Program-made: the position numbers and the translations under genes
Source of the DNA: a virus
Reading direction: 5' to 3' (one strand)
DNA: 58,257 nt
Virus record (IMG/VR): IMGVR_UViG_3300027971_002004
Span: 1-58,257 of that record
Part shown: positions 1 through 17,704 of the stretch, piece after piece
Position numbering within the stretch: position 1 is the first letter of the stretch
Layout: each line of letters starts with the position of its first letter
The notes under the pieces: model-generated
Databases searched by the model: none
What the model was told of the DNA's origin: nothing
The model's input: the letters and a program-made list of their open reading frames with translations, nothing else

Positions 1-640
1 CGGGAATATATTTGTTCCCCCAGACATAGATATAAGGAGGACTATTAGGATCTGGTCTCCATGTCATGTCGAATCTAGTTTTATCAATTGGTTGAACTTC
101 TACCCATTTGTCTAGTTTGGGTAACAACTCTATTAATTCATTCATATATTTTATATGAATAGCGTCTTTTACATGATACTCTACGACCGAGCTAATTTCT
201 GGTGGGAATAATTTACAACCCCATTTGTATATATAAGGTGGATCAGTTGGATCTGGGTGCCATGAGAAATCAAATTTAGATTCATCAATTGAGTCAAGTA
301 TTATCCATGAATTTGATTTTTCATTGCGACGTTGTAGCGGATTTACGTCTGCACGATAAAGTGATAAGGGCAATTCATTGGTAGTATTACACAGCCAAGT
401 ACCTGAATCTTTTTGGTGTTGGCTAGGCCAAATGTTGATATGTTCTTCAGCCCATACATCTTCATCAGGTAAAAACTCAAAATCAAAATCCCAATCGAAT
501 TTTCGATAATCACAATATTCATTGATTATCCAAAAATGTTCTGTGGTGCACTGTTGTCTAGCGTCAGCTAAATTAAGTGCGTGTTTTTCTCTAGGGTGGG
601 CGTTTGGTTTATTACCGTAATAAAATACATCTCTTAGCAT
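1..640 (-). CDS. Aromatic WxPDP-repeat protein, 3' end beyond the window
   Basis: An open reading frame starts at an ATG at 640 (first residues MLRDVFYYGNKPNAHPRE) and runs without a stop through the window edge, giving at least 213 residues. It carries three copies of a roughly 35-residue unit. The two clear copies read FDFSWHPDPTDPPYIYKWG (about 205-310) and FDMTWRPDPNSPPYIYVWG (about 3-107). A more diverged copy, FDWDFDFEFLPDEDVW with INIWPSQHQ, lies at about 420-540. Each copy is preceded by a W-[IV]-x stretch and ends in an aromatic WG or WP. Similar units are, to my knowledge, found in phage proteins annotated as glycosyltransferase-like, but I cannot assign an activity. It is the last gene of the minus-strand modification cluster seen here, 38 bases after the oxygenase stop codon. 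Confidence 0.8.
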   Translation of the reverse strand, partial: MLRDVFYYGNKPNAHPREKHALNLADARQQCTTEHFWIINEYCDYRKFDWDFDFEFLPDEDVWAEEHINIWPSQHQKDSGTWLCNTTNELPLSLYRADVNPLQRRNEKSNSWIILDSIDESKFDFSWHPDPTDPPYIYKWGCKLFPPEISSVVEYHVKDAIHIKYMNELIELLPKLDKWVEVQPIDKTRFDMTWRPDPNSPPYIYVWGNKYIP

Positions 641-678: not shown

Positions 679-1374
679 TTATCTACCGTCAACTGTTCCC
701 ATAGGCACAGTAGTCCACATTACTATAGCTCTTTTAGTTGTTATACCATTATCAAAAAAGTAATCGCTAGTATGGAACTTTGCTCTGGAAGCGGCTGACA
801 AGTCACCCTTCTTCCACGGGAATATTTGTTCTATACTTAAATATGGCACCTCTTCGGTCATTACTACTTTTTTTAAATATTTGTTAAATGTTTCTTCACT
901 GATACTATTTAAAATTGGAGGATTTGTTTGTTCAATCCAATCAACAACCGTTTTAATATGTAATGCTTCCTGATCAAAAATAATAGTGTTTGAATTATAA
1001 TCGGCTAGTGGAATAATAAAAGTCCAAGCAGGTGTCATCCCCTCACCGGGTATTATTGTGTACTCTACGCCGGGTTCATTTGATGCATCAGTGTGTATAC
1101 TATACGGGTGAAAACTTTCTAAAATATGACAATCATCAATGAAAATGTCTTTGTGAAAGTGTTGTTGTAGTTTAGGCAAAAGTATTTCTTTTAGTCTAAC
1201 ATGGGTATCATTATAGATTCTGAAATCCCATATGTTTGCCATTTTAAATGTGCCCTTGACAGTTTCATTAATATCTACATTTAATGTTGTCATTCCCTTA
1301 GTATGCATATCTTCTATTTCTGTGATTTCGTCATCAGAGAGAAAGTTATGTATGGTTCTAGTATCAATTATCAT
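679..1374 (-). CDS. 2OG-Fe(II) oxygenase-like protein
   Basis: This 231-residue protein has the spacing expected of a 2-oxoglutarate/Fe(II)-dependent dioxygenase of the phytanoyl-CoA/prolyl hydroxylase type. H94 and D96 form the HxD motif in PYSIHTDAS, H201 in AKFHTSDYF is the likely distal iron ligand, and R215 in KRAIVMW is the likely 2-oxoglutarate anchor. Such enzymes hydroxylate or desaturate proteins, sugars or small molecules; the substrate here is unknown. The ATG at 1374 overlaps the end of the upstream radical SAM gene by 11 bases and is preceded by a purine-rich GGAGAGG, so translation is probably coupled. It lies directly downstream of eight radical SAM genes, which suggests it is a further oxidative tailoring step of the same pathway. 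The fold call is fairly firm, the role is inferred. Confidence 0.72.
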   Translation of the reverse strand: MIIDTRTIHNFLSDDEITEIEDMHTKGMTTLNVDINETVKGTFKMANIWDFRIYNDTHVRLKEILLPKLQQHFHKDIFIDDCHILESFHPYSIHTDASNEPGVEYTIIPGEGMTPAWTFIIPLADYNSNTIIFDQEALHIKTVVDWIEQTNPPILNSISEETFNKYLKKVVMTEEVPYLSIEQIFPWKKGDLSAASRAKFHTSDYFFDNGITTKRAIVMWTTVPMGTVDGR

Positions 1375-3418
1375 TTATAACCTCTCCTATTTCCTCCCAT
1401 TTACCGGTACCTATATAATGATAGTTAAATGAGAAATCAACATCTTTGTATTGTTCAAGCATTCTTTCTATTTTTGCTTCTTTTTCGCTAGGTATTTGAG
1501 GAGTTTTAACGTGTTTAGCTATGCGTTCTGCAATAAAAGTATTACTTGATGTTTTTTCAAGATTTTTCCACTTTGATCTGCTCCAAGCATGTTGGGGTTG
1601 TTTATAATCTAATTCAAAGTCTGCACTCCAAGTACCATCTTCTTCTATACTAAAATTGTAAACAGCAGTAAAATCATAATCTACCGAACTTCCATATTCT
1701 GCAAAATCTTCATCTTTGTTATAATGAATTCTTATATCGTACTTTCCTAGTATGTGCCAAAATATTCTAAGAACAGGAAATATATCATTTATCAATGAAT
1801 CAGCAAATGCTCCTTTGCCTGTCTGAATAATATTAAAATTCATATTTTCTTCAAGTTCAAGATTTACTTTTCTTTCATTTATTTTATCATAATTTATTTT
1901 ATAAAAATTGCCAATTGTAGGTCGCAATGCGGCTATGTTAAAATCTAAGAAATCATGTCCTGACACTTGAATTTCTTTAGCCCAATGTACTAATATGTCT
2001 AATCCTTTTCGTTTAACTAATGAATGGACTTTAGTATTATTGTAGTTAGTACAAATACTATTACCCAAATAACAAACATCGATTAGATCGTATCTTTCAG
2101 TGTCTTGTGTAATAATGGCATTGGTATCAAACCAAAACATATTAACGCTTACACATGCCATTGTTCCTGAAGGTAACAAATTCCAATTCAATACTAATGT
2201 TTCATAATAATTATATGCTGATTCAGTAGGAAATCCTACAAACCATAAACCAGTATGACGCATTCCCACTGCACCACTATCTTCTACATTTGCTAACACA
2301 TCTGCCACAGTAATTTTTTTGTTAATGTCCTTTAGTACTTTATCTGAACCTGATTCAATACCTAGACCAAATCCATAGCATCCAGAATCTTTTAATGTTT
2401 GCAGATACTCTCTATCCATTCGTTTATCACATCTGGCTAAACCATTCCATATAACCTTTACATTATTATCAATAAGACCTTTAGCAAAAATTAATAATTG
2501 TTTAAGATCACCGTTGACTAAACTATCAACAAAGTTAAGTTCAGTTATCTTATATGTGTTATATAACTCTATAATCTCATCAAGTAAAGCAAGACCTGAT
2601 CTTTCTCTAAACTTCCAGTAGTGTGTTTCATTACAGAATACACATTTAGCAATACATCCTCTACTGATTTCAATATCGATACCTTTTGATCTATATAGAT
2701 CAAAATCATAATCTCTGTAATTAGATGCAGGCATATTATCAAGGCTGGCTCTGACTTCGCCCTTTTCAATTAATAATTTATGACCTAATCTAGGAACATT
2801 ATTTTCAACTTCATCTAGTATTTTTAATAAAAGACTTTCACCTTCACCTGCAACGGTATAATCATATGGCTTTGACAACAAATGATTTTCATTCCATATG
2901 TTAGCTATAATATTAACTCCACCGACTATTATAACAATCTCTGGTAATTCAGCCCTGATCTTGTTTACTAACCAGTCCATAGGAAGTTCGTTGCAATAAT
3001 ATTGTGTAAATCCTACTATAGTAGGACGTAATTTTTTAATACGTTCAAAACAATCTAAAAGATGTTTTTCTAAATGGGGATGTATATCTTGATGATAATT
3101 AGGATATATCCATTTCCAATCTCGATTAGTATGCCAAGGATCGTAATCTAGTCCCCAATTTACATGGTCGTTATGGGCAACAATATTCATATCAATGCTT
3201 GTAGTTTTATAACCGTTTGCTTCTGCTAATGCTGATAACCTAGCTAGATTATAAGGAGGACCTCTGATTGACCAAGAAGGGATTAAAACAAATACTATAC
3301 TTGTCTTTTTAGTAATTTCAATGGGTTGTGCTTCTATATTTGAAGGCACAATTTCATCAGTCCTCTTTACAGTGGACTCCATACTTGCAACTTTGTGTAA
3401 TAAATTATCTGACCACAT
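1364..3418 (-). CDS. B12-binding-domain radical SAM enzyme (paralogue 1)
   Basis: This 684-residue protein has the architecture of cobalamin-binding-domain radical SAM enzymes. A Rossmann-like N-terminal region at about 40-205 contains IPSWSIRGPPYNLARL, IVIIVGG and AGEGE. A radical SAM core follows, with CxxxCxxC at C255, C259 and C262 (RGCIAKCVFC). No canonical DxHxxG lower-ligand motif is visible, as in many members of this class. A C-terminal region of about 200 residues is unassigned. The protein is a clear paralogue of the gene at 6573-8888, sharing a YWKFR/FWKFR segment after the cluster, NFVDSLVNGDL/WFVDSLANGDI, and GxESGSxKVL. It starts at an ATATATG context three bases after the previous stop codon. 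Class members methylate unactivated carbons or make cyclisations; the substrate here is unknown. Confidence 0.85.
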   Translation of the reverse strand: MWSDNLLHKVASMESTVKRTDEIVPSNIEAQPIEITKKTSIVFVLIPSWSIRGPPYNLARLSALAEANGYKTTSIDMNIVAHNDHVNWGLDYDPWHTNRDWKWIYPNYHQDIHPHLEKHLLDCFERIKKLRPTIVGFTQYYCNELPMDWLVNKIRAELPEIVIIVGGVNIIANIWNENHLLSKPYDYTVAGEGESLLLKILDEVENNVPRLGHKLLIEKGEVRASLDNMPASNYRDYDFDLYRSKGIDIEISRGCIAKCVFCNETHYWKFRERSGLALLDEIIELYNTYKITELNFVDSLVNGDLKQLLIFAKGLIDNNVKVIWNGLARCDKRMDREYLQTLKDSGCYGFGLGIESGSDKVLKDINKKITVADVLANVEDSGAVGMRHTGLWFVGFPTESAYNYYETLVLNWNLLPSGTMACVSVNMFWFDTNAIITQDTERYDLIDVCYLGNSICTNYNNTKVHSLVKRKGLDILVHWAKEIQVSGHDFLDFNIAALRPTIGNFYKINYDKINERKVNLELEENMNFNIIQTGKGAFADSLINDIFPVLRIFWHILGKYDIRIHYNKDEDFAEYGSSVDYDFTAVYNFSIEEDGTWSADFELDYKQPQHAWSRSKWKNLEKTSSNTFIAERIAKHVKTPQIPSEKEAKIERMLEQYKDVDFSFNYHYIGTGKWEEIGEVINDN

Positions 3419-3421
3419 ATA

Positions 3422-4516
3422 TTAAAAAGGTTTATAAATTTTAGGGTAATTAGTTACTTCTGGCATATTTAATACTTCAAGTAATCTAGCGTATCTTGGA
3501 GAAGTCTCAAGCCAAACTGCTTTGTCTCGGAATAGAAAGTCAGGCATATGATCTCCTTGTAATATCGGGTGTATGTGAATCATCGGTAAATTATCCGGGT
3601 ACTTATATGCTAACCTAATTAATTCCGGAATAGATTCAAAATTATCTTCTTGTAATACTACAATCCAGGCCCAATCTACAGTATTGTCAGGGTGCTTTAA
3701 TCTAGATTCATATAGATAATCTAAGTTTTTCCACAATGTAGCCCAATGACCACCAAGCCTAACCTTATCATAGCTTTCTTCATTTCCTGCATCAATACTA
3801 ATCTTAACAATTTTTGTTTGAGTAAACAAAGTCGCATGTTTGTTTTGCATTTTCTCAGTCATTAATACGCCATTGGTTAATAGAGTATATCTTAGATTAG
3901 GCCATAGTTCTGGATTTGTAAAACACTTTCTAGTTTCAAATTCATGTCTATATATACTACTACTGAAAATGTCACCAATACCATCTATTTCTAAATCTAC
4001 TCGGTGATCATGAGGTTGTTCAAATAAAGAATCAAGTACTGATCCTATAATTTTTGCGGCTTTTTCACGTTGTTCACCCAAGAATGTTACCTTTTCTACT
4101 CTACATGACGGGCAATATAAATTACAAGTACCGTCTACTGATAGATTGATTTCAGTAGGTAATGCGTTAATTGTAGTATTGAATGTTTCTTTTAAGGGAA
4201 ATTTTTCAGCATGATGAATAAAATGGCATACTTTTTTGTCGCAATATTTGTAAGAACTATCAAGTATAGATTGTCTAATTAAGTTAGCCTTCTTGCCTGA
4301 CCAAATTTCTTGAACACTTTCTGTTAATACATTTCCGATTACCGCAGGTAACCATTGGGGACAACATATTATTACATCACCGTTCTGAAGAACCATAATC
4401 TTACGAAAAGGTTCGGGGCATACCCTACCCGTCAAAGAGGGCAATTTACTTACATCATTTTCATCAAAGTCTTGGTAATATAAATCACCAAATACCGGGT
4501 CAGATAGTTTTTTCAT
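3422..4516 (-). CDS. Radical SAM protein with N-terminal SPASM/twitch-like cysteines
   Basis: This 364-residue protein has an N-terminal auxiliary-cluster-like region with C33, the pair C51-C52 and C92/C97 (GRVCPEPF, GDVIICCPQW, KYCDKKVCHF). The radical SAM motif follows at C131, C135 and C138 (CNLYCPSC). The usual GGEP glycine motif after the cluster is replaced by EIDGIGDIF, as in some other SPASM enzymes. It starts with ATGA-type overlap with the upstream gene (4513-4516) in the context AAAGATATATG, without a clear Shine-Dalgarno sequence. The architecture suggests peptide or protein modification or a carbohydrate dehydrogenase-type reaction, but no substrate can be named. It is sandwiched between two other radical SAM genes in one transcription unit. 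Confidence 0.82.
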   Translation of the reverse strand: MKKLSDPVFGDLYYQDFDENDVSKLPSLTGRVCPEPFRKIMVLQNGDVIICCPQWLPAVIGNVLTESVQEIWSGKKANLIRQSILDSSYKYCDKKVCHFIHHAEKFPLKETFNTTINALPTEINLSVDGTCNLYCPSCRVEKVTFLGEQREKAAKIIGSVLDSLFEQPHDHRVDLEIDGIGDIFSSSIYRHEFETRKCFTNPELWPNLRYTLLTNGVLMTEKMQNKHATLFTQTKIVKISIDAGNEESYDKVRLGGHWATLWKNLDYLYESRLKHPDNTVDWAWIVVLQEDNFESIPELIRLAYKYPDNLPMIHIHPILQGDHMPDFLFRDKAVWLETSPRYARLLEVLNMPEVTNYPKIYKPF

Positions 4517-5859
4517 ATATCTTTATTTATCTTTGCAAACGACGGGGTACCTGCAGCCGGATGCCATGACAACTCTGGAAAAGTTTTAAGAAAATTAGTA
4601 CCACGTGCCTCATCTAATTTGTTGAACCATTCACTTGATGAATCATGATTAATAATCACTGGCTCATCAATTGCTTTATGAAATCTCTCTATATTATCAT
4701 GTAATGTTGTTATTGCAGATTCCCTAACACTAACATTCTTTAACGGAACCATTACATCAACATACCATTCTTGAAATTCACGCAAGCTAGTATGTAGGAA
4801 TTCTTTCCATTCAGGCGTAGCACATGATATCGATAAATGTTCAGGGTGCATCAAAATTATATTATGAAAATCACATTCCCATTCAGATGAATCATAAAAG
4901 GTACTTGATAACAGTTTTTGCTCAGTTATAAATTCTACCATTTCTTTCATACGATGTGTGTTCATAATACTCCATGTAGGAGTCAATGTCCATTTTTGTC
5001 GTTCACCGGTTAACGCATTATTTAACCTATGTAGATTTTTTACTATTGTATCTAATTCTAACGGATAGCGAGAATAGTGAAGTCTGTCTCTATCTACTTC
5101 ATCCATACTTACTAAAATCTTTAATTTTTTAATACGAGCCCAATACTCCAACACATCAATATCTTTATATTTTAAAGAAGTTAAATTAGTACTGTAGCAA
5201 AAATGAGTACCATCATCAAATTTTCCGGCTTCATCCATTGCTTTTAATATAGCAAAATGTTCTGGTTGAATTAATGGTTCACCTCCAGCTAAGTATACGT
5301 CATCTGCATATTTGGCTTGAGATTTAATAGTATTAATAAACTTTTCCTTGTTGATTGAACTTGTGTTAAATTTTTCTGTCGTGGCGTTTAGTGGCCACAT
5401 CTTGTTAACAACATCTACCCAAGCACTGCTATATTTTGTACTACAAGGTGTACATGCTAGATTACATAAATTACTAAATCTAAAATCCCATCTGTAAATT
5501 TTCATTTCTTTCATGGAACCATCTTCTTCAGTACCTTCTTCAACCAATTCTTCGTATTTTTTTCCATACAAGTTATTGTAGAAATTTCTTATAGTATTTG
5601 TATTGCCCCATTCTTCTTCCTTAAGGCATCTATCACAATTCTTAGCGGGTATTTCATTTAGCATATTTTTTCTAAATGTTTTGTAATTATCATTATTCCA
5701 TATTACTTCAATTTCATCTTCATACAGATTACCCATTGGTTTTCCAATTGCCGCAATACAACATGGTTGTATATCGCCGTTTGGCATATTATGAACATGC
5801 ACCCAAGGTGCCATGCAAAATACTTTACTCTCTTTTAATCTAAATTCTTTGTTTGACAT
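4513..5859 (-). CDS. N-terminal twitch-domain radical SAM protein
   Basis: This 448-residue protein matches the phage-abundant twitch domain-containing radical SAM family (N_Twi_rSAM type) in organisation. Cysteines C15 (FCMAPWVH), C33-C34 (QPCCIA) and C75/C78 (CDRCLKEEE) form the likely N-terminal auxiliary cluster. The radical SAM core begins DFRFSNLCNLACTPC, with C132, C136 and C139, and has a classical GGEP motif (YLAGGEPLI). Family members are common in T4-like marine phages, but to my knowledge none has a proven substrate. The gene is preceded by an ATAAATA late-promoter-like motif at about 5880-5889, making it a possible internal transcription start within the cluster. The last codons encode KINKDI from a sequence that itself contains GATAAATA. 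Confidence 0.87.
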   Translation of the reverse strand: MSNKEFRLKESKVFCMAPWVHVHNMPNGDIQPCCIAAIGKPMGNLYEDEIEVIWNNDNYKTFRKNMLNEIPAKNCDRCLKEEEWGNTNTIRNFYNNLYGKKYEELVEEGTEEDGSMKEMKIYRWDFRFSNLCNLACTPCSTKYSSAWVDVVNKMWPLNATTEKFNTSSINKEKFINTIKSQAKYADDVYLAGGEPLIQPEHFAILKAMDEAGKFDDGTHFCYSTNLTSLKYKDIDVLEYWARIKKLKILVSMDEVDRDRLHYSRYPLELDTIVKNLHRLNNALTGERQKWTLTPTWSIMNTHRMKEMVEFITEQKLLSSTFYDSSEWECDFHNIILMHPEHLSISCATPEWKEFLHTSLREFQEWYVDVMVPLKNVSVRESAITTLHDNIERFHKAIDEPVIINHDSSSEWFNKLDEARGTNFLKTFPELSWHPAAGTPSFAKINKDI

Positions 5860-5887
5860 ATATTAATATTTCTCGGTTGTATTTATT

Positions 5888-6586
5888 TTATAACCATAAT
5901 GGAGTTTTAATGATCCTACCCTGATCATTTACACGTGGCATATGAAATTTTGTCAGAGTCCACGGTCTATAATCTAATGTACCTACAGTCTTTTTTATTA
6001 AGCGAACACATTTGCCATGAAATGTAATCTCTATTTCTTTGTCTATAGCAAAATCAACAAATGCTCTGTAAATATGACAATGAGTAATATCATCACCAAA
6101 TATAAAGCCTCCTTCTGGCAAAAGATCCCAACAATAATTTAAATTATCTATTGTATCATCGTACATATGATTTGTATCTAGTAATATTCCAGATATAGGT
6201 TTTATACGTAAACTTTTACAATCTCCGGTATACAAAACAATATTACTAAAATCTTCTACTTGTAACTGTTGTACTGTTAGTAGATCGTTAACACTTAATT
6301 CAGGAAAATCAATACGATCTCTGAGGTCTACCATCATTGGATTATCCTCTGAAAAGGCAGTTGCAAAGTCATTTAAATCTATAGTATGTATACACATATT
6401 AGGTAATGCTTTGGCAAACATTACGGCTGTTCCTCCAATTAAGGTACCCAATTCTAGTATGTGTGATCCCGGGGGTAGTGTCGATAAACTCTCAATCATC
6501 CATTGTACATCCCAGGGCGGAATTGCTGAAAATGGCGTATCTAACAATTTTTGTTTTATATAACTTCTCTGCTCATCCGTTAGCAT
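5888..6586 (-). CDS. Class I SAM-dependent methyltransferase
   Basis: I use the ATG at 6586 (MLTDEQRSYIK, 232 residues) rather than the longer frame starting at 6703. This start overlaps the upstream gene by 14 bases, while the extra N-terminus lies wholly inside that gene and is lysine-rich. The SAM-binding glycine motif ILELGTLIGGTAVMFA lies at about residues 43-58, an acidic IHTIDLND follows, and GFIFGDDITHCHIYRAF fits the later strand of a Methyltransf_24-like fold. This type commonly O- or N-methylates sugars or small molecules. It is the only conventional methyltransferase among the radical SAM genes, so it could act on the same product or supply a finishing methyl group. Its start has the ATATATG context shared with several neighbours. 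Confidence 0.82.
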   Translation of the reverse strand: MLTDEQRSYIKQKLLDTPFSAIPPWDVQWMIESLSTLPPGSHILELGTLIGGTAVMFAKALPNMCIHTIDLNDFATAFSEDNPMMVDLRDRIDFPELSVNDLLTVQQLQVEDFSNIVLYTGDCKSLRIKPISGILLDTNHMYDDTIDNLNYCWDLLPEGGFIFGDDITHCHIYRAFVDFAIDKEIEITFHGKCVRLIKKTVGTLDYRPWTLTKFHMPRVNDQGRIIKTPLWL

Positions 6587-8888
6587 ATATAGGTATTTCT
6601 TTTTTCTTTTTATAATGTATTGATTCTTTAGTTTGTATTGAATCAGTTTTCCAATCAGATACATTTCCTTGTTTCTCAAAAACTTCAGTAAAGCTTTGGT
6701 CAAGTTTAGCTCGTTCTAATGCATAATGTTCTTTATTAATTTCTTCTAAAGTATCATGGTCAAACGTATGACTAACAGATATGTTATAATCTCCGTTAAC
6801 ATCTATTGACATTTTTACTTTAGCAGTATATATACACGTAATTAGTCCACCAAATGTTTCAAAGTCAGTTATTGGATCACATGTAAATTCAAAATCATAC
6901 TTACCATAATAAATGTACAATGCATACGCAAACGCAAAATATTCATTGATGACAGTCTTACTTAGTGTAGTATCACCACACTGATTAAAATCTACATGTG
7001 AATCATATTCTAAATATTCTGTTTTTGGATCATTGTGTACATTAAATGTGTAGAAATCTTTTATTACATTATATCTCTGTGAATTTATAGCAACACTATC
7101 AGAATGGTCTTTAATTATTTCTAACCAAATATGAAATAATTTTAATCTGACAAAACGATGTATTAATGTGTTTTTATAATCAGTGGTATACCATTGTTTT
7201 AAGAATACATTATCCCATGGTCTTTCAGTCCATTGAATACCATACTTTTGCCAAGCAGTGTCCAAATCACTCTTGTGACTAGGACTAGCTCCAAAGCCCG
7301 GACTAATAGCAGTAACCCATTTCCTACAATTATATATTAATTGAAGGCTATGAAATGCATCAATAGGTTCTTCAGTTGGGAAACCTACCATCCAATTAGC
7401 ATGATTAAACATACCTATCTTTTTACCATTTCTGAAGTTATCTTCTATTTCCCAAACTTTAATTTTCTTCTTCATGTCGTCAAGTACTTTTTGACTACCG
7501 CTTTCTACTCCAAAGCTTAAAGCTGAACAACCGCTATCAGATATTTTTTTGAATACTTCTTCAGTCATTCTACCGTCACATCGGGCGTAACTATTCCAAC
7601 GAATTTTCCACGGCTTTTCTATTAGTAAATCAAGTAATGTAACAAAGTTCTTTATATCACCGTTAGCAAGACTATCGACAAACCAAAAATGTTTAATTCC
7701 ATACTCTTGAACTTGATGTTCGATTTCCTCAACTACTCGCTCAGGAGTAGTGCTTCTAAATTTCCAAAAATGTGTCTCTGTGCAAAAACTACATTTTGCA
7801 ACACATCCCCTGGATGTTTCAATACTAGCACCGGACATCAAATAATTAGATAATACATAATCGCTATAATCAGGGTAAGCATATACATCCAAGTCTAGTC
7901 TGCTATCAACTGATCCTACTATTTGATTCAATGGGTATTCTTTTGGAAGAGTCTCTAATGTATATAAAAGTGTTTCTTCTGCTTCACCTACAAAGATATA
8001 GTTGAATATATTTTTTGCATCACTATCAAACCAATATGATCCTGTAATTGTTTCAGGGCCTCCCACAATAAAACAAATATCGGGTACTAATTCTTTGAGA
8101 TATTTGACTAATACCATTGTAGCGAAATAATTTGTTATGTATAAACTAAAGCCAACAACTTTGACTCTTGAAAATGCAATTTCTTCAGCTATACGATACA
8201 ATATCGGCTTTAGATCAGGTAAAATATATTTGTCAAAGTTGTCTTTATCTTGCCATAGAAAATAGCGTTCTGATTTCCAATAATCTTCGCCATGTTCTTT
8301 TAAGAAATAGTGATAAGCTTCAATATTAATATCATAGGATTTGACACTATACCCATTTTTTCTAAGTGTCCCTGTTAATTTAGAGAGGTTATAAGGAGGA
8401 AATAGTATTCCCCATGAAGGAGCCATCACCATTGCAATTCTAAATTTATCTGTCTTTGCCCACGGCGTGTCTGAGTATACTTGTATGAATTCATTTACCC
8501 CATTTACTTCAGGACCGTTTTCTTTTAATAAATGTTTTGAAACAATTTGATCTCTATCACCATATACTTGTTTTTTAGCTTCTTCTTCCAGGTCAGATAC
8601 TTCACTGAGCATAAGGTGAATCTGTTTACGTTTATTTCTTAAATCTATTAATTCAGGTCCACTTAGTTCTGGAAATCTACTAAAGGCAATTTGTATATAT
8701 TCATCAGGACAGTTTGGATTCAATACAGCGGCTCTGGCTACAGACGAATCAACTTCATCCGCACAGAATGCTCTGAGTAACCATAATGGACAGGTCTTTT
8801 CAGTTGCTAAGATTGACCTATCATTGGGGTGAAGTGCTAAGACTAATCTGTCTTTATATTGTTGATCCAATTCAGGTGAGTAGTTCAT
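6573..8888 (-). CDS. B12-binding-domain radical SAM enzyme with LRV-like N-terminus (paralogue 2)
   Basis: The ATG at 8888 (MNYSPELDQQYKDR, 771 residues) is chosen because it lies three bases after the upstream stop; a start at 8927 would sit inside the previous gene. Residues about 10-70 resemble leucine-rich-repeat-variant units (LALHPNDRSILA, ARAAVLNPNCPDEYIQIAF). This module is absent from its paralogue at 1364-3418. A B12-binding-like region follows (AMVMAPSWGILFPPYNLSKL, ICFIVGGPET, FVGEAEETL), then the radical SAM motif RGCVAKCSFC with C362, C366 and C369. The C-terminal 250 residues are unassigned but related to the paralogue. The LRV-like part may bind a partner or substrate protein. 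The reaction is likely a cobalamin-assisted radical methylation or rearrangement, substrate unknown. Confidence 0.86.
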   Translation of the reverse strand: MNYSPELDQQYKDRLVLALHPNDRSILATEKTCPLWLLRAFCADEVDSSVARAAVLNPNCPDEYIQIAFSRFPELSGPELIDLRNKRKQIHLMLSEVSDLEEEAKKQVYGDRDQIVSKHLLKENGPEVNGVNEFIQVYSDTPWAKTDKFRIAMVMAPSWGILFPPYNLSKLTGTLRKNGYSVKSYDINIEAYHYFLKEHGEDYWKSERYFLWQDKDNFDKYILPDLKPILYRIAEEIAFSRVKVVGFSLYITNYFATMVLVKYLKELVPDICFIVGGPETITGSYWFDSDAKNIFNYIFVGEAEETLLYTLETLPKEYPLNQIVGSVDSRLDLDVYAYPDYSDYVLSNYLMSGASIETSRGCVAKCSFCTETHFWKFRSTTPERVVEEIEHQVQEYGIKHFWFVDSLANGDIKNFVTLLDLLIEKPWKIRWNSYARCDGRMTEEVFKKISDSGCSALSFGVESGSQKVLDDMKKKIKVWEIEDNFRNGKKIGMFNHANWMVGFPTEEPIDAFHSLQLIYNCRKWVTAISPGFGASPSHKSDLDTAWQKYGIQWTERPWDNVFLKQWYTTDYKNTLIHRFVRLKLFHIWLEIIKDHSDSVAINSQRYNVIKDFYTFNVHNDPKTEYLEYDSHVDFNQCGDTTLSKTVINEYFAFAYALYIYYGKYDFEFTCDPITDFETFGGLITCIYTAKVKMSIDVNGDYNISVSHTFDHDTLEEINKEHYALERAKLDQSFTEVFEKQGNVSDWKTDSIQTKESIHYKKKKEIPIYANG

Positions 8889-8890
8889 TT

Positions 8891-10189
8891 TTATTTTCTC
8901 GTATAATTTAATGCTTCGGCTAGCCAAGGAACGGTATCAGCAAGGTCTTGATTTCTATAATTATCGGTCCATTTGATTATCTCTATTGCTCTAGGTAAAA
9001 GCTGTGATGAATCTTTTTCATTCATATAGTCAATTATACTATAAATGTGTTCTTTAATAAAGGGAACATTAGATTTAGCAACGTATTCATCATACAGTGC
9101 GGTTATCTCTTTTTTTGTTGTTTGTGGTAATATTTGAACATTTAGCCAGTCTGGGCCTACTAATCTATGCCACATTAATTTATGATGGAAACGTTTAAAG
9201 TTAGCAGTATTGTGATACCATTCTATCATTTCAATAAAATGCTTTATATTAAAAATATTAACGGTTACATTTGTAGTACAGTAGAGTTGCGGGATATCCG
9301 CATTATCTAATTCATACATATGTTGCTTAATCACTTCCCATTTAGAAGGATATCTTATATAATTAGCCATATCGTCCATGCCATCAATACTAAAACAGAC
9401 AATAACTGATTGGAAATGTTTCCATTGATTTAATAAATTCTTATTCAATGTAGTACCATTGGTATTGTATTCTAATGTAATGTTTTTTGCAAAATCATTT
9501 TCGATACAGTAATCTAAAATTTCATAGTGTTTTTTATTGATTAGAGGTTCTCCGCCAGTAAAGTAGATTCTATTCAATGAGGGTAAAATTTGCTTGATAT
9601 CATCATTGAATTTTGGAGTATCGTAGTACTGGAAATCATCACCCTTAATTTTGTATGTGTTGGCTACCTTTTCAATTTCGTAAGGTGTATTTATTTTACC
9701 AAACTTAAATTCAGTAGTGCCACGCTCATACGTTTCTTCAATCCACAATGAACTATCGCCCGGGCCGCACATGCGACAAACAAGATTACATAAATTACCC
9801 AAACGAGAATCTAAATATTCGATAGGAAATTCAGTAGTATCTATTTTACCGCTAGCATCTGGTTGTTCTAATATTTTATTCAATGTGTCTTTATAGGCGT
9901 GCTGTTGTTGTTGACGTTTAGATACTAATCCAAGATCCTCTTCATCCCAGCAGAGTTTACACAAATCACTTTTCTCACCATTCAACATACTGCGGCGCAA
10001 TTCAACAATTGTAGGATGATTTCTCACTTCATTAAAATTATCCGTTAGTGCGCTAACTGCTTTCCCGTCAGTAAGCATTCGTCCACCAGAGGTATATATA
10101 CACTGGCAACAAATTCCATAATCTCCATTTTGGTAAGTTGCTTGATGATTCCATGGAATCGTACAAATTGTATTCTTTTTTTCACTCAT
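8891..10189 (-). CDS. N-terminal twitch-domain radical SAM protein
   Basis: This 432-residue protein has likely auxiliary-cluster cysteines at C9 (ICTIPWNH), C27-C28 (YGICCQC) and C77/C80 (CKLCWDEED). The core follows with DSRLGNLCNLVCRMC (C134, C138, C141) and a GGEP motif (IYFTGGEPLI). The order and spacing are those of the twitch domain-containing radical SAM family, and it is a paralogue of the genes at 4513-5859 and 10182-11555. It overlaps the upstream gene by eight bases (10182-10189). No substrate is known for phage members of the family. Having three diverged copies in one operon suggests successive steps or different substrates rather than redundancy (inference). Confidence 0.87.
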   Translation of the reverse strand: MSEKKNTICTIPWNHQATYQNGDYGICCQCIYTSGGRMLTDGKAVSALTDNFNEVRNHPTIVELRRSMLNGEKSDLCKLCWDEEDLGLVSKRQQQQHAYKDTLNKILEQPDASGKIDTTEFPIEYLDSRLGNLCNLVCRMCGPGDSSLWIEETYERGTTEFKFGKINTPYEIEKVANTYKIKGDDFQYYDTPKFNDDIKQILPSLNRIYFTGGEPLINKKHYEILDYCIENDFAKNITLEYNTNGTTLNKNLLNQWKHFQSVIVCFSIDGMDDMANYIRYPSKWEVIKQHMYELDNADIPQLYCTTNVTVNIFNIKHFIEMIEWYHNTANFKRFHHKLMWHRLVGPDWLNVQILPQTTKKEITALYDEYVAKSNVPFIKEHIYSIIDYMNEKDSSQLLPRAIEIIKWTDNYRNQDLADTVPWLAEALNYTRK

Positions 10190-11555
10190 ATGTTTTACAC
10201 TTCATATAAAAATCTATCATTTCAGGGAATGCGTTAAAAAAGTCTAACGATCTTCTTTCTGATAATTGGTCAATGTTTTTACTAAAATCTGAAAGTAAAT
10301 TAACATCAGAATTAGTTCCGATGCTATTCTTTAGCTCATATAACTGGGTGATATACTCTTCCCATGTTCCAAATAAATAACCATCAGGTCTATCTTCTTC
10401 ATTTTTTAATATTTCTATAGCATCATCTACGTATGACCTATAGCTAGGTGGTAATATAGTTGTACTTAACCAGTTAGGATATACCACAGTGCCTCCACGT
10501 AGATTTATTGGGATACCATACTTGCGTTGAATACTAATAACCCAGTTAAAGAAATTAGGTAAATCAGAAACGCACAATGCATTCAAAGCCAACATTAAAT
10601 TTATTGAGACACATTTTTTATTTTCCATCTTACTTATTAATGATAGCATTTGATCGATATTAGAAGTAAATCTTTCCCATTTTGTGCCAGTTCGTATAAA
10701 CTCAGTTCTCTCACCCACTGATTCAAGACTGATATTCAAGTCTAATACTAAATCAGTATTAGCAATTCTAGGAATTAAGTCCATAAATTTATTAAAATAT
10801 TGTTCAGGCGTATTAAAGTTAGTAACAACTGACAAATATACAGGTCTATTAACTTTTACTTCACTAAATTTAATTAAAATTAAATCAATGTATTCATATA
10901 ATTTACTTATGATTAATGGTTCTCCACCAATGAATCCAATAATTGTTGTTGTGTTGGCTACTCTATCATAAAACCATTCCCACCAAGCTTTTTCTAAATT
11001 AGAATTTGCAATCGGGTCAACATCTTTACTAAAGTTTATAGGTATTTCTTTATATTTAATTTTTTCAGTAATCCATTGAGTACTAAAAAATTCATTACAA
11101 TACACACACTTTAAGTCACATGTATTACCTAATGCTATCTCAACGTTATTTACAAAATCTATATTTGTTGCCAAATCATCTTTTTGTTCATCAGTTAGAT
11201 TCATCAACATGTTTTTTATTTCTGGAGCCTTTTTACCCTTATAGTGATTAGCGTGTTCAACATATTCCGCAAATCTATTAAATCCATGACCATGTCTTGA
11301 ACTCTTTAATCCGTTGTTTTCTAACTTCCAACAATAAGAACAATTATCTGTTTGAATGCCATTTAACAAATCTAGTTTAGCTTGTCGAATAGGTTCAAAT
11401 TTTGTAAAAATATCTTTACCTAATCTAGTAATATCCTCATTTGAAATTTTATGATGTTTTGAATGACAGCACATGCTAATTTCATTATTAGCCAAATTAA
11501 CAATAGGATAGTCCCATGCTTTTTTACATAGAGTATTGACGATATTATTTTGCAT
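10182..11555 (-). CDS. N-terminal twitch-domain radical SAM protein
   Basis: I take the ATG at 11555 (MQNNIVNTLCKKAWDY, 457 residues), which overlaps the upstream gene by 11 bases; a TTG at 11567 would add only four residues. Likely auxiliary cysteines are C10, C29-C30 (ISMCCHS) and C72/C75 (CSYCWKLE). The core motif is GNTCDLKCVYC with C146, C150 and C153, and GFIGGEPLI is the GGEP motif. It is the most diverged of the three twitch-type paralogues, with a different middle part (LNISLESVGERTEFIRTG) and a longer insert between the auxiliary region and the core. Its role is unknown. Its position inside an uninterrupted run of radical SAM genes argues for a shared pathway. Confidence 0.86.
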   Translation of the reverse strand: MQNNIVNTLCKKAWDYPIVNLANNEISMCCHSKHHKISNEDITRLGKDIFTKFEPIRQAKLDLLNGIQTDNCSYCWKLENNGLKSSRHGHGFNRFAEYVEHANHYKGKKAPEIKNMLMNLTDEQKDDLATNIDFVNNVEIALGNTCDLKCVYCNEFFSTQWITEKIKYKEIPINFSKDVDPIANSNLEKAWWEWFYDRVANTTTIIGFIGGEPLIISKLYEYIDLILIKFSEVKVNRPVYLSVVTNFNTPEQYFNKFMDLIPRIANTDLVLDLNISLESVGERTEFIRTGTKWERFTSNIDQMLSLISKMENKKCVSINLMLALNALCVSDLPNFFNWVISIQRKYGIPINLRGGTVVYPNWLSTTILPPSYRSYVDDAIEILKNEEDRPDGYLFGTWEEYITQLYELKNSIGTNSDVNLLSDFSKNIDQLSERRSLDFFNAFPEMIDFYMKCKTYE

Positions 11556-12597
11556 TTCTATCACCAAACAATGTGAAATCTTTCTTAGTATAACCTTTTA
11601 AAAATATTCCGTCCTTTGATGGGCCTAATAATACATCATAGTTGTTATCCTTAATAGGAACAATTGCCCATGTACAATAATCAACAAAATTAGGTATTTC
11701 TTTAAGCTTGTTCTCAACTTCTAAAGTATATTCGGTTGTGTTTGGCTTCATCATAATTTTAACTTCAAGATGGCCTGTTTTACCCTTACCTTCTCTCTCA
11801 ACTTTAGTTTCAACTATTCCTTTAACAACTTCTAGGAATTTTTCCTGATTCCATCCTTCATAATGAACACTTAAATTAAGATCTCCGTAAGTAATAAGTT
11901 CTTGATAATAATCAGGTTTTCTGCTACCGTTACTATGCATACTGAGATTATATCCCAATACATTTATGTAACGACACCAATCTAAGAACGCCGCATTAGC
12001 AGTTGGTTCTCCGCCTGTAATAATAAAATTACAACTACTATCTCCGATGAATTCGTCTTTTATTTTATCAGTGGCTGTCATTAATTCTTCTAAACCTTTA
12101 TGAGCTTCATAGTTATTGTGAATGTGAGGCCAGCAATAAGAACAATCATAGTTACACCTACGACCTATTTCCCAATGTACTTGTTTGAAACTAGTACCGT
12201 ATATTCGTTCCATAGCTACAATATTATCTATAGAATCAACTTTCTTTGACATATCTGTTTCAAGTTCTTGTTTTTTTCTAAGTAACGGAATATACTCTAA
12301 CGTTTTAACTTTGGGTATGAATAAGTCTGCTCCACAACTACAAATACTTTTATAGCATTTAGGCCATTCTTTGGGTGTTTCAAATTTAGAAAACACATTT
12401 CCAAGTGAGCCACCTTGTTCACAGGATGCTCCAAATATTTCTCCGTCAGAATTAATGAATAAATTTTCAACCCCCATACTGCAGGCCCATCCATTCAGAT
12501 AATTTAATTGTTGTCCTATAAAATCATCTGTTCCAAAATCTTTCCAATTACCCGCGGCATCATATGCTCGTAGTGGTTTTCCAGGAGTTGTGTCCAT
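11545..12597 (-). CDS. Radical SAM protein with the auxiliary cysteine domain at the N-terminus
   Basis: In this 350-residue protein, residues about 39-95 hold a SPASM-like segment (GVENLFINSDGEIFG, C39, C59, C81, C86, C88 in CYKSICSCG). It closely resembles the C-terminal end of the neighbouring gene product at 12597-13547 (GVEQIIVDLSGDVFRGWC, CNKTMCHCN). The radical SAM motif comes later, at C148, C152 and C155 (GRRCNYDCSYCW), with FIITGGEPT. Domain order is therefore reversed relative to its neighbour. It shares one base with the upstream stop (TAATG), so the two are probably translationally coupled. The enzyme may act in concert with the neighbour, or the pair may derive from a split fusion. 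Substrate unknown. Confidence 0.86.
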   Translation of the reverse strand: MDTTPGKPLRAYDAAGNWKDFGTDDFIGQQLNYLNGWACSMGVENLFINSDGEIFGASCEQGGSLGNVFSKFETPKEWPKCYKSICSCGADLFIPKVKTLEYIPLLRKKQELETDMSKKVDSIDNIVAMERIYGTSFKQVHWEIGRRCNYDCSYCWPHIHNNYEAHKGLEELMTATDKIKDEFIGDSSCNFIITGGEPTANAAFLDWCRYINVLGYNLSMHSNGSRKPDYYQELITYGDLNLSVHYEGWNQEKFLEVVKGIVETKVEREGKGKTGHLEVKIMMKPNTTEYTLEVENKLKEIPNFVDYCTWAIVPIKDNNYDVLLGPSKDGIFLKGYTKKDFTLFGDRNAK

Positions 12598-13547
12598 TAA
12601 ATTACCTTCTCTTTCGTACTCATTATATCAAAATTACAATGGCACATAGTTTTATTACAAATAGTTGGTGCTATAGGTACTTCAAAATCTTCAAAAATAT
12701 TACCAATCTTTCCGCCTACTCTGCACCAGCCTCTAAACACGTCTCCTGATAAGTCTACAATAATTTGTTCAACACCTACATAACATTTCCATCCTGACCA
12801 ATCGTTTGTTTTTTCACTTAAAAATCTATGTGAACTGGATGTTATCTCTGTGTTATCTTCTGCAACCATTTTCATAGCACCACGATAATAATCAAAAGAC
12901 TTGTCGTATTTTATATGTTTAACAATTAATTCATGCTGTTTATCAAATATATTTTGTTGGGACTCTGTATATTCATACATTACTTCTCCAAAATCATAAA
13001 TCAATGGTTGCAATGCCATAGAAATATTTGTAATATTTTTTATTTTATTAGCTACTGCGTAACAAAAAGAAAACTTATCAGGACTCATCATAATATTTAC
13101 ATGAGTACGAACATCGTTATGTAACAATTTAACAACTTCTACAAAGTGATCTGCTTCAGCAAATTCAGGGTGAAAGCTCAAACATACGTGGTCGAAATAT
13201 TTCTTGTTATCTTCCCACCACCGTAACGTTCTACTACCATTACTGATTAATCCAACTTTGGCTCCCAATTCAGTGCAATGTTTGCATATCTCTACAAAAT
13301 GTTTGTATAGTGTAACTTCACCGCCGGTTAACTCAAAATAAACTTTACGCGGAGCAACTTGTTCTACCACACGTGTAATAAAGTCTTTAACTTTTTCTAG
13401 TTCAGGCCATTTCACACTACCTGAGTGAAGATTTTCTGGGCAATAACTACATTCAAAGTTACAAGTATTGCCCATACACCAATTAACTACAAACCAATCT
13501 TCATGGCTCGGAGTATTATGTACTAACTTAATATAATTATGTTCCAT
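12597..13547 (-). CDS. Radical SAM protein with C-terminal SPASM-like domain
   Basis: I choose the ATG at 13547 (MEHNYIKLVHN, 316 residues). It overlaps the previous stop as TAATG and has AAGG at a suitable distance; an ATG two codons earlier (13553) has no room for a ribosome binding site. The core motif is GNTCNFECSYC with C29, C33 and C36, and FELTGGEVTLY replaces GGEP. The C-terminal 60 residues (GVEQIIVDLSGDVFRGWC, then CNKTMCHCN) form a short SPASM/twitch-like cysteine domain. It is the first radical SAM gene of the series of eight, directly after a glycosyltransferase-like gene. Confidence 0.87.
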   Translation of the reverse strand: MEHNYIKLVHNTPSHEDWFVVNWCMGNTCNFECSYCPENLHSGSVKWPELEKVKDFITRVVEQVAPRKVYFELTGGEVTLYKHFVEICKHCTELGAKVGLISNGSRTLRWWEDNKKYFDHVCLSFHPEFAEADHFVEVVKLLHNDVRTHVNIMMSPDKFSFCYAVANKIKNITNISMALQPLIYDFGEVMYEYTESQQNIFDKQHELIVKHIKYDKSFDYYRGAMKMVAEDNTEITSSSHRFLSEKTNDWSGWKCYVGVEQIIVDLSGDVFRGWCRVGGKIGNIFEDFEVPIAPTICNKTMCHCNFDIMSTKEKVI

Positions 13548-14500
13548 TACCATCCTTCTATTTTTCTAATAACATCCATCTCTTTAACTAACGGACCGAT
13601 ATTGTATTTATCGGCTAAGTAATGTCGCTTGAAGAACAGGCTTTGTTCTGCGTTATGTATACACATCGGTAAGCCTAGCTTATCATGTAATGCCTCACCT
13701 AATAAGTTTGCTTCAACTTCAGGATCTCTATGTAAATGTTCTTCCCACAATACAGTATAGTTATCAAACCATTGTACATTATGCGGGTCCCATTGTGTTA
13801 ACATAGTCATGTATGTGCCTAATCGTGCACCATAAATAGCCCACAATCCATTCTCTACGTCACTACCAATGTTATGCCAAACAGTTAGATTGTTTAAGTT
13901 ACGTGTAGCAACAGTTTCTTTAAATTCATCAATCGTGGGTCTTGCACCACGATTTAAACTCATCTTTACACCCTCACGGAAGCCAGCTCGCCATGCTTGA
14001 AATGGTGTATGATTAGGATAAGTTGTACTGTAACAATCATACATAGCCCAGTATAAATTATCTTTGCTATCTAAACAGAAATCAGCAATACGTGTTTCAT
14101 CTCCGTCAGTTTGATTCTCATGTGTTTTCATATTCATCACATAAGTTTTTGTCCAACTGCTCATCCCACCATTGCCATAACGTAATCCATTAATACTATT
14201 AGTAGCTTTCCAACGATATTGCGCTAGTTTGTATGTAGGATCTTTATCAGTAAAATCTAATTGCATGTTGAAAAACGTTTCATCAGGCATGTTATCACCG
14301 TCAATTAAAATAAAACGCTCAGTATCGCTTGCAATTGCGGCCGCTTTGTGTGCCGCATCACTTCCCTTAACGTTGTCAACACGTTTAGCCCAAGGCACCA
14401 TGTTCTTAATCTTAAGCCAGAATTCTTCTTTCTGTGGTTCATCATAGCTAAGATAGATACAATCTAAATCTGCTACATCAATGATATCATTGGAGTTCAT
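13547..14500 (-). CDS. Glycosyltransferase-like protein (GT-A type, DxD motif)
   Basis: This 317-residue protein begins with an early strand DLDCIYLSYDEP and a FWLKIKNMVPWAKRVDN segment. D67-G68-D69 in FILIDGDNMPDE match the metal-binding DxD of GT-A glycosyltransferases. The lysine/alanine-rich GSDAAHKAAAIAS before it is typical of a phage family that I believe is annotated as glycosyltransferase. The downstream half (GMSSWTKTYVMNM, PFQAWRAGFREGVKMSLNRG) looks like a catalytic domain rather than a fiber. It overlaps the 119-residue upstream gene by 14 bases and starts in the AAAGATATATG context. It may glycosylate virion proteins, DNA or host surface sugars; the sequence does not say which. 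Confidence 0.65.
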   Translation of the reverse strand: MNSNDIIDVADLDCIYLSYDEPQKEEFWLKIKNMVPWAKRVDNVKGSDAAHKAAAIASDTERFILIDGDNMPDETFFNMQLDFTDKDPTYKLAQYRWKATNSINGLRYGNGGMSSWTKTYVMNMKTHENQTDGDETRIADFCLDSKDNLYWAMYDCYSTTYPNHTPFQAWRAGFREGVKMSLNRGARPTIDEFKETVATRNLNNLTVWHNIGSDVENGLWAIYGARLGTYMTMLTQWDPHNVQWFDNYTVLWEEHLHRDPEVEANLLGEALHDKLGLPMCIHNAEQSLFFKRHYLADKYNIGPLVKEMDVIRKIEGW

Positions 14501-14846
14501 ATATCTTTAATTTCCATTTAGTTGTTTTACCGTCATATGAGCTATCAGCTATGATACTAATATCATCTGCTATACATTCTACCCCTTCATCCATATTAGG
14601 CATTAATTTATATACCACTGATTTGGGACTAGCAGTTGAGATCCTGCCATCAATAACTCTTATGTCCGGTCTTGCGGCTGCAAAAGTTAGAGCATCAATT
14701 ACAATGTAATTACCGGTCATTGATTTGTCACCGGTATAACATATTACGCTACCATTACTATCATAGTATAATCTGAACTCAGGTGGTTCCATTTTAGGTT
14801 GTTCCCATATAACTACATATTCCTGTTGATTATCTTCTGTACTCAT
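14487..14846 (-). CDS. Conserved-looking small protein of unknown function
   Basis: This 119-residue soluble protein starts MSTEDNQQEYVVIWEQ. It has alternating hydrophobic segments consistent with a beta-rich fold (PEFRLYYDSNGSVICYTG, YIVIDALTFAAARPDIRVI) and a basic C-terminus (GKTTKWKLKIYELQ). There are no cysteine pairs, membrane segments or known catalytic motifs that I recognise. It overlaps the preceding glycosyltransferase-like gene by ATGA and the following one by 14 bases. It therefore sits between two sugar-transfer genes in one coupled unit and could be an accessory protein or a substrate carrier. I cannot assign a function. Confidence 0.75.
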   Translation of the reverse strand: MSTEDNQQEYVVIWEQPKMEPPEFRLYYDSNGSVICYTGDKSMTGNYIVIDALTFAAARPDIRVIDGRISTASPKSVVYKLMPNMDEGVECIADDISIIADSSYDGKTTKWKLKIYELQ

Positions 14847-15598
14847 TTTATACTCTCTAATATTTTATCACTAAAATTCTTTATATGATAGTGAAAAGGG
14901 TATCTTTGCGGAATAGTTTGAATTCTAATATGATCTGGTAAACACTCATACACAAATGTGTCAGTCCAATTTTCAGTTGGTGTTTCATTAATATATTGTT
15001 TCATATGTACCATTGTCATATCAGTAAACGTTGGCATCATTGTGGTTTCAACTCCCATAATATGACAAGCAATAGCATATGCCCAATCAGTTGTGGCTAA
15101 TTCTTGTGCATTACATTTTAATGAGGCTTTATAATGATCCCACTTCTCGAACACATCTCTTACTATAGCAAAAAATTGTTTAGCAGTATCAGACTTTTTA
15201 AAATAAGTAATTGCATTGTATGCGTCGGGTAAATTATTATCATCTATAAATCTGCGATACACTCTATTATCTGATATATCTTGTTTGTAATTTCTAATAG
15301 CACTTGATACTACCAAGTCTCTGTGTGATAAAACGTCCCACCAATAGTCAATATTTTTTGGAATATACATATCTGATTCTAGTTTGATTGTATATTCATA
15401 TGGGCTAGCATCATATACTTGCCAATCATTTTGTAACTTCCAATTGGTATTAGGTGATTGATCACCATGCGGCAACATAGCGGTAGTTACTATAGTTATG
15501 TTAGCATCGGGCATTACTCTTTTAATACTCTTTTCCAATGCAGAAGCACATTTAACGTAGTCATCACCTTGCGCCATAATCACAAAACCTTTATTCAT
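14843..15598 (-). CDS. Glycosyltransferase-like protein
   Basis: This 251-residue protein starts MNKGFVIMAQGDDYVKCA, the first strand and nucleotide-binding loop of a nucleotide-diphospho-sugar transferase fold. E74-S75-D76 in IKLESDMYIPK occupy the DxD position. Later segments (AYNAITYFKKSDTAKQFF, TDWAYAIACHIMG) fit an acceptor domain. It overlaps its upstream neighbour by ATGA (15595-15598), with GGAG in front of the start. It is a diverged relative in layout of the product at 15595-16395 and may be a successive transferase. Targets could be tail proteins, since the unit lies just downstream of the fiber genes, but this is inference. Confidence 0.65.
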   Translation of the reverse strand: MNKGFVIMAQGDDYVKCASALEKSIKRVMPDANITIVTTAMLPHGDQSPNTNWKLQNDWQVYDASPYEYTIKLESDMYIPKNIDYWWDVLSHRDLVVSSAIRNYKQDISDNRVYRRFIDDNNLPDAYNAITYFKKSDTAKQFFAIVRDVFEKWDHYKASLKCNAQELATTDWAYAIACHIMGVETTMMPTFTDMTMVHMKQYINETPTENWTDTFVYECLPDHIRIQTIPQRYPFHYHIKNFSDKILESIK

Positions 15599-16395: not shown

Positions 16396-16697
16396 CGTTT
16401 TTTCTCTAGTTCAACCCACTCAGTGTACCATTCTTCCATGATTGATTTATAAACTGTATTAAGTTTAGACAACAATGATTGTCGGTTTATTTTAACTGGG
16501 TTATTAAAATTATCTATTAGAACAATCTCATCTTCATTAGAAGAAGTAAGAAAGTTGATTGTTGCTAGATTGGCACTCCACAAGCCATTTTGGTCAGCTA
16601 CGATAAGTTTACTTTCGTATTTGTCTTTTAAATATGCTTTAGCAGAATTATGATTGAAGCGGGCCTTGGCTTCGGTAATTAAAGTCTTTGTATCCAT
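16392..16697 (-). CDS. Small conserved phage protein next to the tail fibers
   Basis: This 101-residue charged, helical-looking protein starts MDTKTLITEAKARFNHNSAK and ends EWYTEWVELEKKR. It has no membrane segment or signal peptide. It has a good start, with AGGAG ahead of the ATG. A CTAAATACT late-promoter-like motif lies at about 16713-16719 on this strand. It is the first gene after the fiber genes, a place where T4-like phages often keep fiber assembly factors, so a chaperone role is possible but not shown. I do not recognise a named family. Confidence 0.75.
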   Translation of the reverse strand: MDTKTLITEAKARFNHNSAKAYLKDKYESKLIVADQNGLWSANLATINFLTSSNEDEIVLIDNFNNPVKINRQSLLSKLNTVYKSIMEEWYTEWVELEKKR

Positions 16698-17695: not shown

Positions 17696-17704
17696 TTATT
17701 TTCC

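Follow-up and report, generated by a model that had tools for sequence, protein, structure and literature searches.

A radical SAM gene array exchanged behind a conserved glycosyltransferase-like anchor in a large phage: a possible glycan-tailoring cassette

The IMG/VR virus record IMGVR_UViG_3300027971_002004 was analysed over its complete length of 58,257 nucleotides (hereafter the window) and seems to represent part of the genome of an uncultured virus. By open reading frame (ORF) calling and profile searches we found ten tightly packed minus-strand genes from position 13553 down to 679, eight of which encode radical S-adenosylmethionine (rSAM) enzymes. The first of these, rS10, forms a fixed anchor together with the neighbouring glycosyltransferase (GT)-like gene GT1, and the remaining array is exchanged between close relatives. 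We consider it an even call that the genes serve to assemble a modified glycan in the cytoplasm, with the tail fibres as its most likely carrier. More tentatively, exchangeable rSAM lines may put rare modified sugars on fibres, so that the receptor-binding tips of large phages would be diversified by chemistry and not by sequence. As part of that same tentative reading, the GT1-rS10 pair would anchor these lines, and its rSAM half would be common to flagellin and polysaccharide loci of Bdellovibrionota. The genes of the array, in order from 13553 to 679, are as follows.

12597..13553, minus strand: rS10, radical SAM with C-terminal SPASM-like cysteines, the array anchor (PF04055 45.8 bits; CxxxCxxC at 13440-13463)
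11545..12597, minus strand: rS9, radical SAM with N-terminal SPASM-like cysteines (PF04055 52.1 bits)
10182..11567, minus strand: Twi8, twitch radical SAM (NF033640 217.5 bits, cut-off 170)
8891..10189, minus strand: Twi7, twitch radical SAM (NF033640 347.8 bits)
6573..8927, minus strand: B12b, B12-binding-like radical SAM with an N-terminal helical-repeat domain (PF04055 64.9 bits; PF02310 31.4 bits)
5888..6703, minus strand: methyltransferase, Methyltransf_24 family (PF13578 31.5 bits, cut-off 26.3)
4513..5859, minus strand: Twi4, twitch radical SAM (NF033640 292.9 bits; PF13186 46 bits)
3422..4516, minus strand: SPASMa, radical SAM with N-terminal SPASM (PF13186 37.8 bits; PF04055 23.4 bits, below cut-off)
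1364..3418, minus strand: B12a, B12-binding-like radical SAM (PF04055 54.4 bits; PF02310 20.6 bits, weak)
679..1374, minus strand: putative 2-oxoglutarate (2OG)-Fe(II) oxygenase, the small protein ending the run (motif and predicted fold)

A first-pass annotation of this DNA had described eight consecutive rSAM genes with CxxxCxxC motifs, and we found that all eight ORFs (1364-13553) match PF04055, six above the curated cut-off and two below it. Each protein contains exactly one intact CxxxCxxC, where 0.055 would be expected in the whole set after shuffling, and the cysteines of rS10 are invariant across 19 sequences. The three twitch enzymes named in that annotation were recovered as well, since Twi4, Twi7 and Twi8, and no others, pass the cut-off of NF033640 ('twitch domain-containing radical SAM'). 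Its two B12-binding-like and three SPASM-like proteins were borne out in part. B12a and B12b are broadly similar to B12-rSAM families, but their PF02310 matches are weak and below the cut-off of 32.1; a relative (L101) reaches 42.4 bits. The Pfam SPASM profile is matched by SPASMa, at its N-terminus, and by Twi4 but not by rS9 or rS10, in which the SPASM-like assignment is by cysteine pattern only.

As had also been proposed, one methyltransferase interrupts the rSAM genes and a 2OG oxygenase follows them. No Pfam, NCBIfam or PHROG family matches the 2OG gene. However, in an alignment of ten sequences the HxD...H...R motif is invariant (H94, D96, H201, R215), and the AlphaFold model (predicted local distance difference test, pLDDT, 82) matches Fe(II)/2OG enzymes within the top 50 Foldseek matches listed. 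The conserved motif and the predicted fold argue that this small terminal protein is a 2OG-Fe(II) oxygenase. Searching with it returned 11 loci, all within rSAM arrays and about half on contigs already retrieved through rS10.

Within the array, neighbouring genes overlap by 1-37 nt or are separated by gaps of 3 and 28 nt, apart from one overlap of 131 nt, which falls to 14 nt if the methyltransferase begins at the ATG at 6586 instead of the listed TTG. Probably the true starts of the methyltransferase, B12b and Twi8 are the ATGs at 6586, 8888 and 11555, not the listed TTGs. The earlier description of tight junctions holds. Its extent for the unit (679-13547) is too short, because tight overlaps run from 16697 to 679: from h101 to the 2OG gene every junction is an overlap or a gap of at most 28 nt. 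This suggests that the GT-like genes and the rSAM array form a single unit, in which three GT-like genes lie upstream of the array, after a tail-fibre block.

13547..14500, minus strand: GT1, glycosyltransferase-like (AlphaFold pLDDT 89; Foldseek matches mostly GT-A, partial)
14487..14846, minus strand: h119, small conserved protein (31 loci)
14843..15598, minus strand: GTa, GT-like, fibre-block protein (position kept in 53 loci; GT assignment by eye only)
15595..16395, minus strand: GTb, glycogenin (GT8)-like (best PDB matches of its profile are glycogenins, E 0.27, not significant)
16392..16697, minus strand: h101, small conserved protein, upstream limit of the tight unit (51 loci)
16745..18940, minus strand: f316 and f411, tail-fibre-like (f411: Peptidase_G2 PF11962 24.9 bits, cut-off 25)

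Using rS10 we retrieved 80 viral loci, which were dereplicated to 53; ORF calls in the relatives were mechanical. We found that GT1 is adjacent to or fused with rS10 in 38 of the 48 dereplicated loci with visible upstream sequence, and that the fibre block lies upstream in 31 of 38. At least one further rSAM gene is present in all 47 dereplicated loci with enough downstream sequence, and at least three are present in 32. In seven loci (four after dereplication) GT1 and rS10 are a single polypeptide, with repeats preceding; a natural fusion of this kind lies at 8330-10936 of L042. Viral-contig scans using B12b or rS9 alone retrieved no relatives, and phage GenBank records gave few matches or distant ones only. 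Whole contigs carry 2-15 rSAM domains each; the 15 are found on a 90-kb virus contig (G021, the contig of L073).

The conserved segment ends as follows.

12597..12613, no strand: cassette boundary, limit of continuous DNA homology with six relatives (blastn, rS10 3' end)

In six close relatives a continuous DNA match covers the fibre block and rS10 and ends at 12597-12613, the block being up to 87% identical. Compared with one locus (L016), the block proteins are 84-100% identical while no array protein exceeds 35%. This indicates that the array is swapped as a cassette behind rS10, and consequently that phages with near-identical fibres would carry different chemistry. The expectation that the genes are conserved together therefore holds for GT1 and rS10 but not for the rest of the array, which is swapped wholesale between close relatives. 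Companion genes in other arrays encode a carbamoyltransferase, a UDP-sugar dehydrogenase fused to Methyltransf_24, an APH-type kinase, DUF6071 and several methyltransferases, with several of these assignments made by eye; one locus (L098) has a sugar-nucleotidyltransferase-like protein, by eye only. The N-terminal helical-repeat domain of B12b, LRV-like by eye, is also found on B12-type and twitch-type (Twi7-type) enzymes in other arrays. The conserved anchor, the exact boundary, this shared domain and the fusion suggest that the array carries out one process. A joint pathway beside fibre and GT genes, as first proposed, is likewise supported by the GT1-rS10 fusion, the helical domain across rSAM classes and the conserved co-location.

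Our data are consistent with a glycan-tailoring cassette of modular design in a large phage of the T4 superfamily. In the cytoplasm, the neighbouring GT-like proteins would assemble or attach a sugar chain, whose sugars would be altered by the rSAM enzymes together with the methyltransferase and the 2OG oxygenase. For instance, the B12 enzymes could C-methylate and the SPASM and twitch enzymes could catalyse epimerisation, dehydration or other C-H reactions, with O-methylation and hydroxylation as further possibilities. We infer a tail-fibre protein, modified before assembly, as the most likely acceptor, with GT1 and rS10 as the fixed core step and the rest of the array exchangeable.

This reading draws on the GT1-rS10 fusion, on the sugar-type companions and on the fold of GT1, whose matches include a glycosyltransferase described as glycosylating the capsid of the chlorovirus PBCV-1; residues D67 and D69 of GT1 are nearly invariant. 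It draws also on a protein at the distal end of the array.

2..640, minus strand: start of a tandem-repeat protein at the array's distal end (a 1380-aa relative in L106 ends in a GT1-like domain)

The piece of this protein within the window has no family match. In L106 (9383-13525) the giant protein consists of tandem FDFSWxPDPxxPxYIYxFG repeats with the C-terminal GT1-like domain, the latter called by eye. Further points for a glycan are the flagellin, GT and exporter contexts of cellular rS10, described below, and the near-absence of membrane segments: no protein of the operon has a membrane-like segment, and 2 of 440 array ORFs across the loci have one. Given so few such segments, the acceptor would more readily be a cytoplasmic protein, for example a subunit of a fibre or flagellin, than a polysaccharide of the host envelope. 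The first-pass annotation had left the target open as a virion protein, a surface sugar or a peptide; the evidence favours, without proving, a sugar on a cytoplasmic acceptor.

Relatives of rS10 also occur in cells. Matches to the rS10 profile were found in 33 of 291 Bdellovibrionota genomes; the weaker matches may represent other rSAM families. We read the contexts for about eight genomes, in which contigs of metagenome-assembled genomes may be misassigned. In L089 an rS10-rS9 pair lies between two flagellin genes, identified by Pfam, and rS9 is paired with rS10 in L138 as well. Other cellular rS10 genes have GT2, SGNH-like or ABC-2 export genes nearby (GTs and an ABC-2 exporter in L090 and L139). 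The rS10-rS9-twitch clusters of Bdellovibrionota bring together the same rSAM families as the window, but they are cellular and adjoin flagellin, GT2 or ABC exporter genes. The first two genome matches were suspected to be phage contigs; this was rejected, because their neighbours are flagellins, an ABC exporter and housekeeping-type genes, as in cellular DNA. In a tree the phage rS10 sequences form nearly one group beside the cellular ones, with one long bacterial branch inside. After a pair of flagellin genes, L142 (3850-15762) has two twitch rSAM genes together with an rS10-like and a SPASM-type gene; a carbamoyltransferase-like gene lies further along.

Several observations weigh against a glycan. 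The Foldseek TM-scores of GT1 are low (0.2-0.35), and neither GTa nor GTb has a significant GT match. Flagellin genes adjoin rS10 in 2 of the roughly eight cellular genomes examined. The viral loci were selected by rS10, so that the counts describe the surroundings of rS10 and not the frequency of arrays. None of the best solved relatives of rS10 is a sugar enzyme: its nearest structures are those of YydG (a peptide epimerase), Tes, SkfB and viperin. Twitch and SPASM domains are most frequent in peptide maturases, and rSAM genes at the corresponding place in cultured relatives resemble such maturases. Two other functions were set aside: viperin-like antiviral nucleotide chemistry (rS10 scores 59 bits against NF038283, cut-off 180) and queuosine-type DNA modification (PHROG matches weak).

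The main rival, unlikely in our judgement but the strongest alternative to a glycan on the fibre, is that the rSAM enzymes act directly on a virion tail protein by C-H side-chain chemistry, in the manner of maturases of ribosomally synthesized and post-translationally modified peptides (RiPPs), with the GTs being separate. YydG is the best PDB match of rS10. Moreover, two cultured phages, Atu_ph07 of Agrobacterium and Phosso of Sinorhizobium, have three to four rSAM genes after the fibre genes, and these flank a virion-like protein that ends in CHSSCHASCHNSRSRR. Atu_ph07 has homologues of h206 (51% identity) and, over the ends, of f411 (40-49%) ahead of a cupin/JmjC protein, the rSAM genes and the virion-like protein, and Phosso has the same virion-like protein beside rSAM genes at the corresponding place. 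The C-termini of the two proteins are DFCHSSCHASCHNSRSRR and DYCHTSCHASCHSSRSRR, respectively; their last 18 residues are nearly identical although overall identity is about 38%. The first rSAM protein there aligns nearly end to end with the peptide maturases DynA, PapB and DarE, well below cut-offs. Coding sequences 170-215 of Atu_ph07 are described as a block rich in virion proteins (PMC6102473), and the virion-like protein would be gp171, inside that block, if numbering runs in order from gp182 (PMC6102473). The virion-like protein and the maturase-like rSAM suggest that an rSAM cluster at this place can plausibly modify a tail protein directly.

However, a search for Cys-rich precursors did not find a tail of that kind in the window or its close relatives, and found no convincing Cys-rich RiPP precursor candidate beside maturases in the window lineage, the search covering the Cys-rich type. 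The Atu_ph07 enzymes have no BLAST match to the window's array proteins. The Atu_ph07/Phosso cluster resembles that of the window in its place, after a giant structural gene and h206/f411-type genes, but differs in that no GTs were seen, the rSAM families are different and a Cys-rich virion-like protein is included. Direct modification would also leave the GT1-rS10 fusion and the sugar-type companions unexplained. The two virion-like proteins (L104:23119-24009, MF403008 121118-122008; L105:9001-9921, PV764938) share the Cys-rich C-terminus CHxSCHASCHxSRSRR among the rSAM genes, and neither has an NCBIfam match.

It is improbable that the cassette instead alters the host surface polysaccharide during infection and so blocks other phages. 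Earlier work proposed such a role for pelagimyophage GT genes in the same genomic region (PMC7029224) and for clusters of jumbo cyanophages (PMC7824862), and the cellular rS10 cluster of L090 adjoins an ABC-2 exporter and an ATPase. However, the operon has no membrane GT, flippase or ligase, and with no membrane segment in it the membrane flippase and membrane glycosyltransferase of Gtr-type O-antigen modification are absent. The genes also share a unit with tail genes, from which late expression may be supposed. Still further from the evidence is the synthesis of a small molecule with antibiotic-like or signalling activity, as raised for cyanophages (PMC7824862); carbamoyltransferase, 2OG, B12-rSAM and methyltransferase genes do co-occur in secondary-metabolite pathways, but no exporter or scaffold-forming enzyme was seen in the cassette, and the tight link and fusion to GT1 and the fibre-block position speak against this highly doubtful reading. 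Equally doubtful is that the enzymes are separate metabolic helpers merely co-located, as proposed for Campylobacter phages, where boosted host metabolism at low oxygen is suggested (PMC2853527), since the anchor, boundary, shared domain and fusion argue for one process.

Multi-rSAM phages have been reported previously, as far as the portions of the literature compared show without a tested function. The earlier statement that such a set has no described function agrees with those portions, but large phage rSAM sets were themselves already on record (PMC2853527, PMC12390700, PMC7029224). Campylobacter phages CP220 and CPt10 have 11-12 rSAM genes, five of them in an interchangeable block (PMC2853527). 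Like the window they represent large virulent phages, in which the five-rSAM block varies between close relatives; unlike it their module includes a glycine amidinotransferase, its interpretation is metabolic, and the part of the report compared describes no fibre or GT link (PMC2853527). The window's array likewise shows a multi-rSAM block replaced between close relatives, although sequence similarity to the CP220/CPt10 rSAM genes is distant at most. Aeromonas phage 332-Vera has eight rSAM genes in a structural cluster with tail-fibre genes, as in the window, but it belongs to another lineage, Chimallinviridae, and the likeness is by description only (PMC12390700).

In pelagimyophages the rSAM cassettes of the host recognition cluster differ between close relatives and, as here, vary in the fibre/GT region; the part of the report compared describes them in passing, without an anchor or function (PMC7029224). 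The genome of Burkholderia phage S13 encodes three rSAM enzymes and two 2OG proteins (PMC11898562). Clusters with carbamoyltransferase, 2OG and GT genes are known from jumbo cyanophages; like the window lineage, they bring these genes together with a methyltransferase, but they include a halogenase, and rSAM enzymes are unnamed in the text compared (PMC7824862). What is new relative to this literature, as far as it shows, is the GT1-rS10 anchor and its fusion, the boundary of the cassette, the domain shared between enzyme classes, and the gene contexts in Bdellovibrionota.

Large rSAM sets have been noted in phages since 2010 without a function, and the anchor pair, sharp boundary, GT fusion and cellular counterparts make this puzzle specifically testable. 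If fibres are decorated, phage host recognition would rest on chemistry that host-range prediction from sequence does not see, and new sugar-modifying radical enzymes would be available from the arrays.

Terminator- and promoter-like sites are no more frequent in the window than expected by chance. The T4 late promoter core TATAAATA occurs 3 times on both strands of the window against 15.8 expected, so T4-like late promoters are unsupported. The Peptidase_G2 match of f411, to an intramolecular-chaperone family, falls just below the cut-off. The fibre block is preceded by T4-type baseplate genes and an ORF of 5937 aa; between this ORF and the array are h206, f411, f316, h101, GTb, GTa, h119 and GT1. 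The nearest cultured relatives of the baseplate wedge protein are jumbo phages of about 340-490 kb, for example Atu_ph07, Serratia BF and SCTP-2. The 5937-aa ORF (19765-37578), a single frame that separates the fibre genes from the baseplate wedge gene, has FG-GAP-like matches and weak matches resembling carbohydrate-binding modules.

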